Origin: Polystyrenella longa | GTDB lineage: Bacteria; Planctomycetota; Planctomycetia; Planctomycetales; Planctomycetaceae | Length of the DNA stretch: 64,000 nucleotides | Direction: 5' to 3' | Assembly (NCBI RefSeq): GCF_007750395.1 | Contig: NZ_CP036281.1 | Coordinates: forward strand, 1,265,001-1,329,000 | Shown: in pieces, positions 41,803-46,288 of the stretch | Layout of the letters: each line of letters begins with the position of its first letter | How positions within the stretch are numbered: position 1 is the first letter of the stretch | Made by a program: the position numbers and the translations under genes | Notes under the pieces: generated by a model | Databases searched by the model: none | What the model was told of the DNA's origin: nothing | The model's input: only the letters and a program-made list of their open reading frames with translations

Positions 41803-44796
41803 TTAGCTACAGCCCATGCTGGCACCACAGTTGTGGCACAGGTAGCAGTTGCCGTTGCGGACGGTGATGGAGCCGCAGTTATCGCAGGCGGGAGCGTCCG
41901 ATTGGAAGCGGGCAAATTGCTCGCTTCGGTTCGATTCCCCGGGTTCCAGCAGTAACGCGGTCGCTGACACGCCGTCGTGCAGTGATGGTGCAGCAGTTAG
42001 TGACGGTGCAACGCCATTCGTGGCGTGACCGGAAGCTGCCCCGTTGCTTAGTCCGTTTGTCGGCTTCGTGTCCAACGTGGTTCCGGACTGGGGCTTGCCC
42101 TCAGAGATCGATGATGATCCCTTGCTGTCACTGGAATCTTCCACTCGCTTCGGTGTGTTCGCTTCGCGGTAGCCAGGGATAAATTGAATCCCCATCCATC
42201 GGAAGATGTAGTCGACCACACTTTTGGCGTTCGGAATATCCGGGTTGCTTGTCCAACCGGCAGGTTCAAACCGCATGTGACTGAACTTATCGACGATGAC
42301 CGCCAGCGGCACACCGTACTGTAGACACATGGAGGTTTCGGTTCCGATGACATCCATCAGACCACCGATAGTACTACCCTCTTTGGCCATCATGACGAAC
42401 AGTTCGCCGGGAGTACCATCTTCGAACAGTCCCACAGTAATGTACCCTTCGTGACCACCCACAGAAAATTTGTGTGTGATCGACTGACGGGTCGCGGGAA
42501 GCCGACGACGTTCCATGCCCGGTTTGTACTCTTCGCCTTTCTTCTTGCCACCTTCTTTTTTCGTCGCCAGCGGCTGGCTCTGTTTTGAACCGTCACGATA
42601 GATCGCCAGAGCTTTCAGGCCAAGTTTCCAGCCTTCCAGATAAGCGTCTTTGACGTCTTCCACAGTTGAATTCGAAGGCATGTTGACCGTTTTCGAGATC
42701 GCACCCGACAGGAACGGCTGAGCTGCCGCCATCATGCCGATGTGAGCCCGCCACTGAATAGAACGGGTTCCGTTGGCCGGAGTGAACGCACAGTCGAAGA
42801 CCGGCAGATGCTCTTCGAGCAAGCCGGGTGCACCTTCGATCGTGTCGTGCGTATCAATGTAAGCCAGGATTTTCTCGATCGAGTCGTCCGCGTAACCGAG
42901 TGTCGACAGAGCTTTAGGCACAGTACGGTTGACGATTTTCATCATTCCGCCGCCTGCCAGTTGCTTGTACTTCACCAGGGCGATGTCCGGCTCGATACCT
43001 GTGGTATCACAGTCCATCATGAAGGCAATCGTCCCAGTTGGAGCAAGCACAGTCGCCTGAGCGTTGCGGTAACCATATCGACGGCCCGCATCCAGACAAT
43101 CAATCCAGACGTCGCGAGCGGCGTCTTTCAGGTATTGAGGACAGGATTCGTTAATGTCTTCCACTGCTTGACGGTGCATCTGCATCACTCGCAGCATTGG
43201 TTTTTCATTCTCACGGTAGCCGTCGAACGGTCCAATGTTATGGGCGATATGCGACGAAGTCAGGTAACCCTGGCCAGTCAGCATCGCTGTCAATGCACCA
43301 CAGATACCATGACCTGCTTCGCTGTCGTAGGGAATTCCCATCGACATCAGCATGCTACCAAGGTTCGCGTAACCAAGTCCCAGAGGACGATAGGCATGGC
43401 TGTTCTCGGCGATGGCCGGGGTGGGGTAACTGGCATGGTCGACCAGAATTTCCTGAGCCGTAATGAAGATGGACGAAGCTTTACGGAACCGTTCGACGTC
43501 GAACGTGCCATCGGCTCGCATCATTTTCTTCAGGTTGATACTCGACAGGTTACAGGCGGTATCGTCCAGGAACATGTACTCGGAGCAGGGGTTCGACGCA
43601 TTGATCGGACCACTGTTCGGGCAGGTGTGCCAGTTGTTGATCGTCGTCTCGTACTGGACGCCCGGGTCACCACAGAACCAGGTTCCTTCGGAAATTTGAT
43701 CGATTACATAATTGGCGTCGTACTCGGGGCCAGCTACGGAAGAGTCGGTCACCCAGTGAGTCTGCCACTGTCCACCATCCAGAACGGACTGCATGAATTC
43801 GTCCGAAAGACGAACAGACAGGTTGGCGTTCTGGAACATAATGGAACTGTAAGCAGCTCCGTTGAAGTTCGAATCGTACTCGCCACTTTCAATCAAGGTG
43901 CGGGCTTTTTTCTCTTCAACTGTTTTCGCCTGAATGAAATCGAGGACGTCGGGGTGCCAGTCTTTGATCGACTGCATTTTTGCGGCACGCCGGGTCTTTC
44001 CACCCGATTTTACGACAGCGGCGATCTGGTCGTAGACACGCATGAAGGAGAGCGGGCCGGAAGGAGTTCCCCCGCCGGACAGTTTCTCCCGCGAGCTGCG
44101 GATTGTGGAGAGGTCCGTTCCCGTTCCGGAACCGAACTTGAAGAGCATCGCTTCGCTGGTCGCCAGCCGCATGATGTCTTCCATGTTGTCATCCACCGAC
44201 TGAATGAAACAGGCAGAGGCCTGTGGGAATTCATACGGTGTTTCCGGACGACTGACGGTACTTGTCTCGACATCCCAGTAGTAGTTCCCGCGAGAACCTC
44301 GGACGCCATACTCATGGTAAAGGCCGACGTTGAACCAGACGGGAGAGTTGAATGCCCCGTGCTGATGCAGACAGAGCCAGGCGAGCTCGCGGTAGAAGTT
44401 TTCGCCATCTTCCTGTGTAGCGAAAATGCCATCCTGGGTCCCCCAGTCGGCAATGGTCCGGGCAACGCGATGGACAACCTGGCGGATACTGTATTCCCGC
44501 TCGGGTGTTCCCGGTTCACCGTAAAAATATTTACTGACGACAACATTCGTGGCTAACGCACTCCAGTCAGCCGGTACTTCGCAGTCAGTCTGTTCAAACA
44601 GCACATCGCCCGATTCATCCTTGATTTGAGCGGTCCGACGAGTCCAATCGACAGTGTCGAATGGGGCAACATCAGCGGGACAGAAATAAGGGGAAATCTG
44701 CATCGCCTGAGTCTCCTCAGTAACAGATTCCGCCCTGTTTCCTGCGGAGCGCGATCCTTCGTTAATGTGGACATCGACTCCCTTTGAATCGTGCAT
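41803..44796 (-). CDS. nrdJ: Adenosylcobalamin-dependent (class II) ribonucleoside-diphosphate reductase
   Basis: The protein has 997 residues. ATG 44796 is supported by AGGAGG 8 bases upstream. The class II signatures are present: NPCSEYMFLDDTACNLSSINL near residue 400 (active-site Cys region), VLAPTGTIAFMMDCDTTGIEPD near 585, and a C-terminal zinc-ribbon-like cysteine set CDNC, CYLCHNC and MGCS that regenerates the active-site thiols. It reduces ribonucleotides to deoxyribonucleotides using a radical generated from adenosylcobalamin, with no need for oxygen. Two NrdR boxes lie 164-210 bp upstream. Transcription ends at the hairpin at 41739-41775. Confidence 0.95.
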   Translation of the reverse strand: MHDSKGVDVHINEGSRSAGNRAESVTEETQAMQISPYFCPADVAPFDTVDWTRRTAQIKDESGDVLFEQTDCEVPADWSALATNVVVSKYFYGEPGTPEREYSIRQVVHRVARTIADWGTQDGIFATQEDGENFYRELAWLCLHQHGAFNSPVWFNVGLYHEYGVRGSRGNYYWDVETSTVSRPETPYEFPQASACFIQSVDDNMEDIMRLATSEAMLFKFGSGTGTDLSTIRSSREKLSGGGTPSGPLSFMRVYDQIAAVVKSGGKTRRAAKMQSIKDWHPDVLDFIQAKTVEEKKARTLIESGEYDSNFNGAAYSSIMFQNANLSVRLSDEFMQSVLDGGQWQTHWVTDSSVAGPEYDANYVIDQISEGTWFCGDPGVQYETTINNWHTCPNSGPINASNPCSEYMFLDDTACNLSSINLKKMMRADGTFDVERFRKASSIFITAQEILVDHASYPTPAIAENSHAYRPLGLGYANLGSMLMSMGIPYDSEAGHGICGALTAMLTGQGYLTSSHIAHNIGPFDGYRENEKPMLRVMQMHRQAVEDINESCPQYLKDAARDVWIDCLDAGRRYGYRNAQATVLAPTGTIAFMMDCDTTGIEPDIALVKYKQLAGGGMMKIVNRTVPKALSTLGYADDSIEKILAYIDTHDTIEGAPGLLEEHLPVFDCAFTPANGTRSIQWRAHIGMMAAAQPFLSGAISKTVNMPSNSTVEDVKDAYLEGWKLGLKALAIYRDGSKQSQPLATKKEGGKKKGEEYKPGMERRRLPATRQSITHKFSVGGHEGYITVGLFEDGTPGELFVMMAKEGSTIGGLMDVIGTETSMCLQYGVPLAVIVDKFSHMRFEPAGWTSNPDIPNAKSVVDYIFRWMGIQFIPGYREANTPKRVEDSSDSKGSSSISEGKPQSGTTLDTKPTNGLSNGAASGHATNGVAPSLTAAPSLHDGVSATALLLEPGESNRSEQFARFQSDAPACDNCGSITVRNGNCYLCHNCGASMGCS

Positions 44797-44959: not shown

Positions 44960-44975
44960 GCACAATCTATTGTAG
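44960..44975. promoter_or_regulatory. NrdR box 1
   Basis: GCACAATCTATTGTAG matches the palindromic NrdR-box pattern (ACAC-W-ATATAT-W-GTGT) at most positions. Its centre is exactly 31 bp from that of box 2, three helical turns, the arrangement typical of NrdR control of ribonucleotide reductase genes. Confidence 0.8.
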
Positions 44976-44990: not shown

Positions 44991-45006
44991 GTACTACATA
45001 TTGTGA
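44991..45006. promoter_or_regulatory. NrdR box 2
   Basis: GTACTACATATTGTGA matches the NrdR-box core (ACTA, CATAT, TGTG positions). Its centre lies 31 bp from box 1. NrdR represses when dATP is abundant; no nrdR gene is in this window. Confidence 0.78.
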
Positions 45007-45354
45007 ATCGACAAGAGCCCGATATTAAATCAGGAATTCTATTTGTCAAGATTCGAATCTGACGAAGATCCGCGCGAAAAGCAGGGCGGACCTCATTTCT
45101 CCCACAAAAACAGGCGTTTGAGCGTAGTAAATATTGTGAAGATTTTTTTTATTTCGCGTGAAGGTTTTTTGTGGGCCTGAAGCTCCAGAATTCGCCCTGA
45201 AAGAATAGGGTGTTCTGGTAACAAGGCCGGGTGTATAATAGCGATTCAGATGCAACCACCGTTGCCTCTATTTCGACAAACTAACGCAATTAAAAATCTT
45301 CTCAGGTTTGAACTCTTCTACCCTTGAACTTTTCCAACGGGAACGGGAACCTTG

Positions 45355-45813
45355 ATGCGACACTGGCACCATTTGACGATCGCTCTGACCGCGCTATTCA
45401 GCTTCGGTCTGCAAAGCGCACTGCCGCTGCATGCGGCCTCGTCTCGCCTTTGTCTTCAAAAATTGGCTGGTACCGTAGCGACTGTATTCGCAGAATCCGA
45501 AACGGTTCTGCCCGCCTGTTGCCTCTCTCGAATGGAAGCATCAGAGCCGAGCAAGCTAAGTCCCGTCTCCTGCTGCCGGACTCATCATCAGGAAAGTCGC
45601 GAGTCCTGCGACGATTGCGGTTGCTGCATTACCAATCCGCATCTCCCACAATCTGCCTCTACGATCATCGTCACGGCTCCTACGCTGCAACTCAACATGT
45701 TGAGTCCTGTGGGCCGGGAAGTGGCTGATACCAGCTTTGAGACGATGCATAGCGACGACATCCGTCCTCGTGACCCACCGACACAATCGCTGCTATGTGT
45801 CTGGCTCGATTAA
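45355..45813 (+). CDS. Exported Cys-rich protein, upstream partner of the next gene
   Basis: The protein has 152 residues. A signal peptide (about 1-27, ending LHAAS) is followed by clustered cysteines: CC in PACCLSR, CCRTHHQ and a dense CDDCGCC. The paired-cysteine and His pattern suggests metal binding or disulfide stabilisation. The C-terminal part (TIIVTAPTLQLNML onward) lacks cysteines until the last few residues. No family was recognised. It lies 88 bp upstream of the very Cys-rich exported protein, so the two likely form one operon. Confidence 0.6.
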   Translation: MRHWHHLTIALTALFSFGLQSALPLHAASSRLCLQKLAGTVATVFAESETVLPACCLSRMEASEPSKLSPVSCCRTHHQESRESCDDCGCCITNPHLPQSASTIIVTAPTLQLNMLSPVGREVADTSFETMHSDDIRPRDPPTQSLLCVWLD

Positions 45814-45901
45814 CGTCCTCGAATTGAATTCGCTTGCTGCCGGTGGAGACATGTCTGTCCCCATCGCATTTCAAAACGTTTTTAAATTTGAGGATAATCC
45901 T

Positions 45902-46189
45902 ATGTCTAAATATTTCATTACCGCTGCGCTTGTTGCTCTGCTGGCCGTCTTCGCCTGGAGCTTTGGTCCTTCTTCGGCTCAGGCTGCCAGTTCCACCTCC
46001 GGTTGCTGTTGCGACAGTTGCGTCTGCGAAACTTGCGACGGCAATTGTCCTGAAGACTGCACCTGCTGTTGTGTGACAGGAGTCTGCGAAGCGGGCTGCT
46101 GCGATGACGGAGCATGTGCTGACGGTTGTTGTGTCGATGGCAAATGCACCACTGGTAACTGCACTGCAGCAGGCTGTTGCACGATGTAA
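45902..46189 (+). CDS. Exported protein with 21 cysteines in about 68 mature residues (metallothionein-like composition)
   Basis: The start is ATG 45902 (95 residues), with GAGGAT 8 bases upstream. A signal peptide ends at SAQA (residue 27). The mature part is almost a third cysteine in a CC, CCC and CxxC pattern: GCCCDSCVCETC, DCTCCC, AGCCDDGACADGCC and NCTAAGCC. There are few hydrophobic residues. This resembles a metal-binding or extensively disulfide-bonded peptide. It follows the other Cys-rich gene and ends at a strong terminator. No homologue is named. Confidence 0.75.
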   Translation: MSKYFITAALVALLAVFAWSFGPSSAQAASSTSGCCCDSCVCETCDGNCPEDCTCCCVTGVCEAGCCDDGACADGCCVDGKCTTGNCTAAGCCTM

Positions 46190-46247
46190 CAATCACGCGA
46201 ACCTGATTCGATTGGAATCTAATTCGCGATGAAATCGATATGAATCG

Positions 46248-46288
46248 CTCCCCATCGGTGGTCTGTCACTGATGGGGAGTTTTTTATT
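46248..46288. terminator. Bidirectional rho-independent terminator
   Basis: Arms CTCCCCATC and GATGGGGAG are perfect (9 bp) with TTTTTTATT after the right arm. It ends the Cys-rich operon. The TTA at 46284-46286 is also the stop codon of the leftward gene at 46284-47069, so the terminator overlaps its end. The leftward U-tract is not evident. Confidence 0.88.

Follow-up and report, generated by a model that had tools for sequence, protein, structure and literature searches.

Gene pair and its surroundings

The window, i.e. the whole stretch of 64,000 nucleotides analysed here, comes from the genome of Polystyrenella longa, which consists of a single contig of 6.13 Mb. On its forward strand lie two genes separated by 88 nt. 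Gene 1 (45355..45813) starts with ATG and encodes an exported cysteine-containing leader protein of 152 amino acids, which has 10 cysteines and a signal-peptide-like N-terminus MRHWHHLTIALTALFSFGLQSALPLHAA. Gene 2 (45902..46189) encodes a protein of 95 amino acids with 21 cysteines that is, by its sequence, exported and metallothionein-like. The first-pass annotation had placed two exported Cys-rich proteins here, which our analysis confirms. The pair forms a unit closed by a strong intrinsic terminator on the same strand 3′ of gene 2 (46247..46287), a 15-pair hairpin followed by a T run with a z score of -5.9 against shuffled sequences. Upstream, on the opposite strand, lies a gene for a class II ribonucleotide reductase (41803-44796, minus), and downstream of the pair follow genes for two proteins without a Pfam match, a DUF58 protein and a DUF1559 protein. 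Among the neighbours examined, no copper gene adjoins the window's own pair. A plasmid tblastn search gave no match, and an Rfam search of the operon found nothing.

An orthologous pair in the same gene order is present in NAT128, a MAG of the same genus (G002), with 62% and 46% identity. It is flanked by the reductase before and by a DUF58-like protein after, the NAT128 neighbours being assigned by eye, and the gene 1 orthologue lies at L020 5455-5907. Between the two genomes gene 1 has a pS of 0.70 and a pN of 0.37. For gene 2, pS is 0.76, at which the synonymous differences are saturated, and pN is 0.22, with changes at the three codon positions distributed 24/18/58. All 21 cysteines of the window's gene 2 are kept in NAT128, and 12 of these 21 codons have changed silently. 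One antisense frame of gene 2 also shows a low ratio (0.17), which is expected since it mirrors codon position 3, and the annotated frame is stronger. Judged by these comparisons both open reading frames are real genes and the pair is more than chance, because an orthologous pair is kept in the same order, the substitutions are of the coding type and the Cys codons change silently.

Exported open reading frames with at least 15% Cys were also counted, and by this strict filter gene 2 is the sole match in the 64 kb window. The same filter applied to 46 control loci (155,571 bases) returned one match, which is gene 2 itself again, in L052.

Composition and relatives of the gene 2 protein

The signal peptide of gene 2 (45902..45985), judged by eye, comprises 28 amino acids and ends in AQA; NAT128 has AKA at the same place. 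The part after AQA consists of 67 amino acids, of which 21 are Cys (31%), and is free of His and of aromatic residues. Thus the earlier count of 21 cysteines stands, while the mature length given as about 68 becomes 67. A small size, a very high Cys content in CC, CxC and CxxC arrangements and almost no aromatics are features of metallothioneins. The first-pass annotation had also suggested looking for conserved Cys positions in relatives, and these are found, with 21 of 21 kept in NAT128 and partial conservation in the remoter homologues of G108 and G083 described below. Gene 2 has no match to the curated metallothionein models or to any other entry of Pfam and NCBIfam at E up to 10, DUF2282 included, and no PDB relative was found. 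Structure prediction from the single sequence gave a mean pLDDT of 56 and no fold; the C-terminal 25 residues reach a pLDDT of 70-78 and are weakly confident. A Cys-lined four-helix bundle of the Csp type is absent from the model, in which the only predicted helix is the signal helix at residues 4-20 (low confidence).

Searches with the window proteins stayed within the genus, with one further genome giving a real match in a 59-genome search and likewise in a 197-genome search. In searches of 392 genomes, scoring the best 9-23 candidates per genome, there was no match except in the window's own genome. True homologues of gene 2 are carried by two genomes of a remoter genus (g5), G108 and G083. 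The G108 protein is 39% identical to gene 2 over 96 columns (BLASTP, E 6e-7 as a single comparison); it has an E of 6.9e-5 in the genome search, and none of 500 shuffles scored as high in either of two shuffle tests. For the G083 protein the corresponding counts are 0/500 and 2/500. In both genomes the homologue comes after a Cys-rich leader. A Cus-type operon is found about 2 kb away from the pair in G108, and none within the 15 kb examined around the G083 pair.

Other Cys-rich proteins occupy the place of gene 2 after related leaders, as described below, and of the 16 other Cys-rich second proteins only 3 have an established homology to gene 2. The pairwise scores of the second proteins of G003, G025, G089 and G130 against gene 2 are mostly not above those of shuffles. 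A profile built from eight second proteins gives gene 2 18.4 bits, a score reached by 1/500 and 2/500 shuffles. The proteins are alike in composition: they have 12-36 Cys, and beyond residue 24 aromatics are absent from 16 of 17 and none has more than one His. Among the further candidates from searches for Cys-rich proteins of the gene 2 type, L002 and L006 proved spurious on reading their frames, as did L021 and L022, and L003, L005 and L007 were set aside on scores or stops.

Cysteine cluster and C-terminus of the gene 1 protein

The gene 1 protein contains the cluster CDDCGCC at residues 85-91 (45607..45627, forward strand), whose last Cys lies 59 residues before the terminal Trp, and further Cys pairs at residues 55-56 and 73-74. 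The CC and CGCC clusters reported earlier for the upstream partner are thereby located. Its conserved C-terminus RPRDPPTQSLLCVWLD, encoded by the codons at 45763..45810 directly before the stop codon, ends in CVWLD-stop. In the alignment of the window and NAT128 proteins the last 18 columns are 83% identical and the middle 37%. An export signal (by eye), a Cys motif and a conserved C-terminal motif, the features expected of a sensor leader, are thus all present. The single PDB match of gene 1 has a meaningless E of 0.47. A Pfam test for DUF2946 at E up to 10 gave no match for the leaders of the window, NAT128, G003, G089, G026 and G025, and therefore we do not class gene 1 as a member of the DUF2946 family.

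Across genera the homology of the leaders is weak outside the C-terminus (hhalign, 85% over 15 residues). With a held-out profile the window leader scores 21 bits, reached by 0/1000 shuffles, and the NAT128 leader 9.9 bits, reached by 5/500 shuffles in which Cys was kept. We examined 37 leaders, i.e. the 35 loci found by the profile described below together with G002 and G021. All 37 have Trp as the third-last residue and C-x-W-x-x-stop is found in 35 of them, a count that is partly selected, as the profile pulling out all 37 leaders includes the C-terminus; the two fixed residues between W and stop are not imposed by the profile. Left out of these counts as fragments or doubtful are G586, G558:C1:7609370 and G578, and the G586 and G558 sequences have no C-x-W end. 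Also outside the counts are the leaders of G083 and G108 (G108:C1:321236, L114 9236), which were reached via gene 2, carry no CxW end and were missed by the profile. The G083 leader ends in SPPPKSVVVA. When the G108 leader (L114 9236-9822) is compared with that of G083, its C-terminus turns up in a different reading frame of the sequence as deposited, through either a frameshift or a sequencing error.

The distance between the Cys cluster and the end of the leader was then compared in 18 leader groups. The cluster starts 58-68 residues before the Trp (mean 62.8, SD 3.0), taking the nearest Cys beyond a 45-residue cut-off that was our own choice. No group has a Cys 50-57 residues before the Trp, and 7 of the 18 have some Cys 5-44 residues before it. 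A nascent chain spans about 60-70 residues from the active site of the ribosome through the exit tunnel and SecYEG. Therefore the cluster would be just emerging on the envelope side of the membrane at the time when the ribosome stands at the stop codon.

The leader family and its next genes in Planctomycetia

The family was reached from the locus beside the reductase in G003, where a similar exported Cys-rich leader is followed by another exported Cys-rich protein. Relatives of the G003 leader in G089, G025 and G026 precede two exported Cys-rich proteins and a Csp-like protein with a Tat signal. A profile of six leader sequences recovered more members, and the final profile of twelve sequences (A10) places the leader in at least 34 of the 377 genomes of the class, at a minimum of 35 loci spread over 14 genera and four families. 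These counts are lower bounds because the genome searches scored the best 9-23 candidates per genome. Fourteen weak matches of the leader search were rejected after reading their frames and the remaining weak ones were set aside on scores or stops. L100, L102, L105, L107, L108 and L109, which have internal stops, and L104 were set aside from the profile search.

In all 35 profile-found loci, 25 of which were not rows of the profile, the next gene on the same strand is of a metal type or Cys-rich; export of its protein was judged by eye from the N-terminus. Exported Cys-rich proteins follow at 14 loci (G000, the window's own genome, and G003, G025, G089:C39, G130, G035, G139, G179, G146, G734, G102, G084, G057 and G624) and Tat-type Csp proteins at two (G026 and G590). 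The G026 Csp-like protein matches Csp3 in the PDB (phmmer, E 1e-5), and the G590 protein is 53% identical to it. A protein with YHS/TRASH features follows at 16 loci, of which 15 come from genomes of one genus (g56) and are thus non-independent; the other is G089:C5. Three loci (G108, G732 and G006) lead into a Cus-type operon, with a small YHS-like protein first in G108 and G732. In the family as a whole the leader is therefore the first gene before metal-type genes, and at the window's own locus the Cys-rich gene 2 is the one such gene.

Several of these loci contain further genes for metal handling. In G624 the leader and the Cys-rich protein are directly followed by a P-type ATPase with YHS and heavy-metal-binding (HMBD) domains, and genes of the CusB/CusA type are found at G108, G021, G732 and G006. 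Pfam matches back the assignment of CusB-like proteins with HMBD, of a CusA-like pump and of YHS domains, some of the YHS matches being below the curated cut-off. ArsR-like genes lie near the pairs of G130 and G035, and ArsD (Pfam) also near that of G130. G130, G035 and G139 form one genus group, and ArsR-like genes are found in both of its loci looked at (G130 and G035), so the metal may vary within the family.

In the same three genomes, the protein after the leader is a third kind of exported Cys-rich protein with CCATGNCCCPGQGSCCA repeats (L112 3413-3748 and 5078-6014; L185 3344-4317), with ArsR-like genes close by in L112 and L185 and ArsD in L112. In the 15 genomes of genus g56 (L153, L155, L156 and L159-L170) the leader precedes an exported protein with YHS/TRASH-like CCGKC motifs.

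A predicted hairpin over the ribosome-binding site of gene 2

Between the two genes, an anti-Shine-Dalgarno arm GTCCTCGAATT (45815..45825, forward strand), which starts 1 nt past the leader stop, is predicted to pair with AATTTGAGGAT (45885..45895), the arm that contains the Shine-Dalgarno (SD) sequence GAGGA of gene 2 (45890-45894). The SD is predicted to be fully paired, with an unpaired probability of 0.00 and a probability of pairing with the post-stop bases of 1.0 in both the window and NAT128. The minimum free energy has z scores of -2.4 and -5.1 in the two genomes, and the arms covary between them: in the two-sequence consensus all 23 pairs are intact, 2 of them through a double change and 8 through a change on one side. 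An SD-hiding hairpin of the kind expected after a CutF/CruR-like leader is thus predicted in both genomes.

We extended the analysis to 17 loci with a Cys-rich protein (CRP) or Csp as second gene. Only 5 of them (G000, G002, G025, G089 and G734) show pairing of the SD with bases near the leader stop, and in these the pairing peaks 6-9 nt from the first base of the stop codon. In 7 of the 17 the SD is unpaired with a probability of 0.05 or less, compared with 11% among 55 gene starts used as controls (Mann-Whitney p 0.01). Complementarity between the post-stop bases and the SD was assessed in 14 groups, leaving out G002, G035 and G139 as near-duplicates, and gave a Fisher p of 7e-4 against shuffles and 9e-6 against other windows of the same operons; taken group by group, 3 of 14 and 5 of 14, respectively, fall below 0.05. 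In genus g5 (G108 and G083), where the leader has a different C-terminus, the last codons of the leader itself pair with the SD, with unpaired probabilities of 0.01 and 0.02.

Comparison with known systems

A close parallel to gene 1 is CutF of Rhodobacter capsulatus (DUF2946-like). In the account of PMC9973294, the exported nascent chain, on binding copper, is held up in its export via a stalling-like motif at the C-terminus, and a hairpin over the SD of the next gene opens; CutF-like proteins are described there mostly from Pseudomonadota and Bacteroidota, where they precede genes of the OEP, CusA, CusB and PCuAC types. Gene 1 shares with CutF an exported leader with a Cys motif, a distinctive C-terminus, the first place in the operon and a hairpin over the next SD. 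It differs in having no Pfam match to DUF2946 and in its C-terminus, which is PP followed by LCxWLx-stop, whereas that of CutF is only proline-rich; the downstream gene here is metallothionein-like and that of CutF a multicopper oxidase. In CruR of Bordetella pertussis (DUF2946), too, a constant spacing separates the Cys motif from a motif at the C-terminus. CruR is described in PMC9426467 as heading copper operons, just as the leaders found here come first, and as having a few homologues in Planctomycetes. In that account CruR has 45 residues from CXXC to RAPP, is Sec-independent and acts by Rho-dependent shut-off, whereas in the family found here the distance to the C-x-W end is 58-68 residues and a predicted hairpin hides the SD. 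The words metallothionein and copper storage are absent from the main texts of PMC9973294 and PMC9426467.

Among exported copper stores, Csp1 is described in PMC7558416 as Tat-exported, and the passages on metallothioneins place them with cytosolic copper handling; a periplasmic gonococcal Csp is described in PMC12510493 as binding 15 Cu(I). Like Csp1, gene 2 would be an exported thiol-rich store, and a Csp takes the same place after the leader in G026 and G590. Csp1 is, however, a Tat-exported four-helix bundle, while gene 2 has a Sec-type signal, no predicted helices past it and a dissimilar sequence. Gene 2, for which no fold is predicted, is small and very Cys-rich like the bacterial metallothioneins SmtA and MymT, metal-thiolate proteins that fold on metal binding. 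These are described as part of cytosolic copper handling; the gene 2 protein differs from them by its signal peptide and its CC/CCC runs, lacks His and is not matched by the Pfam metallothionein models. The phrase 'periplasmic metallothionein' was not found in the literature searched, and by title no such protein is among the listed matches for metallothionein and planctomycetes. Within the literature searched, the exported metallothionein-like group is thus previously undescribed.

Proposed function and alternative explanations

We consider it probable, on the strength of the sequence comparisons, that the pair is a two-gene copper-response operon in which a nascent-chain sensor similar to CutF and CruR precedes an exported metallothionein-like Cu(I) buffer. 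For gene 2 itself the most likely reading is an exported metallothionein-like buffer for soft metals. Its product would bind and buffer Cu(I) in the cell envelope, and possibly Ag(I) or similar soft metals, with copper as our best guess for the metal from the neighbours of the family. The genome also encodes a Csp-like protein with DUF326 and no obvious signal peptide (L133 1480-1827, G000:C1:5308679), so that gene 2 would add an exported buffer to one in the cytosol. By analogy gene 1 most likely works like CutF and CruR. We infer that its nascent chain would be exported, so that the Cys cluster meets copper while the ribosome stands at the C-terminal CVWLD-stop; slowing of the ribosome at the end of the leader would then melt the hairpin that hides the ribosome-binding site of gene 2, and the opened hairpin would switch gene 2 on. 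In the first-pass annotation the upstream partner figured as another Cys-rich protein comparable to that of gene 2. A regulatory leader of the CutF/CruR type is the better reading of this partner, because it always comes first, its C-terminus is anchored at the stop codon and a hairpin covers the next ribosome-binding site.

The sensor role of gene 1 has to be weighed against a simpler possibility, namely that gene 2 is an exported metal buffer and gene 1 merely a co-expressed metal-binding or chaperone protein whose C-terminus serves sorting, folding or protease recognition. Gene 1 is indeed exported and has Cys clusters, and its C-x-W-x-x end could be a signal at the protein level. Against such a role speak the fixed position of the motif relative to the stop codon, the conserved and covarying SD-hiding hairpin right after that stop and the hiding of the SD by the leader's own last codons in genus g5, and genes of this type precede a metal-type gene in all loci seen; we regard it as rather unlikely. 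The same two-gene logic might also serve chiefly a metal other than copper (arsenic, mercury, zinc or cadmium). Soft metals of many kinds bind to thiols, and the ArsR-like genes and ArsD in the genus group of G130 point in this direction, but the identifiable neighbours across the family are dominated by Csp, the P-type ATPase with YHS and HMBD domains and Cus-type operons, which makes another metal unlikely as well.

The other two alternatives concern the cysteines of gene 2. Metal binding and a dense disulfide network had both been put forward for it. The former gains support from the conserved Cys, the metallothionein-like composition and the copper-type neighbours of the family, and a disulfide-bonded state is compatible with the sequence. 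Exported proteins with many Cys are usually disulfide-bonded, and the weakly confident model of the C-terminal 25 residues could belong to a disulfide-rich envelope or structural protein with oxidised, metal-free Cys. We find this improbable, as relatives fill the same slot with Csp copper-storage and YHS proteins, the CCC/CxC runs presumably cannot all make local disulfides, and gene 2 has neither a predicted fold nor a match to any Pfam or PDB entry. Bufferins, described in PMC12452194 as Sec-exported, Cys-containing copper chelators, are similar to gene 2, whose chelation is putative, and a bufferin-like RiPP would be an exported precursor with Cys modified by an MNIO enzyme to chelate copper. 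The window's genome does contain an MNIO gene (PF05114; L139, G000:C1:4752171-4752950), but it lies 3.4 Mb from the pair, with none near the pair itself. This reading is further weakened because G108 and G083 carry gene 2 homologues and no MNIO gene was found in either, and with no match to DUF2282 or another Pfam family it is highly improbable.

Beyond the window, and more tentatively than for the single operon, we propose that Planctomycetes possess copper-sensing nascent chains of a new class, which end in C-x-W-x-x at the stop. Their Cys cluster would reach the envelope side as the ribosome arrives there, and they would control several unrelated exported copper stores, among them the previously undescribed exported metallothionein-like group. 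If true, this would link metallothioneins, of which the bacterial ones are described as cytosolic, with nascent-chain copper sensors, so far described mainly from Pseudomonadota and Bacteroidota. Planctomycetia would gain a copper-response system with a strongly conserved stop-anchored motif and a fixed distance from sensor to stop. The idea that leaders measure metal outside the membrane would then be directly testable by altering this distance, and the leader would provide a genome-mining handle for orphan exported metal buffers beyond the reach of sequence similarity alone.

Other elements upstream of the pair

Two conserved palindromic boxes (44961-44975 and 44993-45007) lie upstream of the class II ribonucleotide reductase gene. 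They resemble NrdR boxes, and as regulators of the pair they were set aside, since they more likely belong to the divergent reductase. Closer to the pair, 180-254 bp before gene 1, is an inverted repeat on the forward strand (45101..45175, CCCACAAA..TTTTGTGGG). It has no Rfam match, and the repeat and its flanks are kept in NAT128; it could be a leader RNA or a regulatory element.
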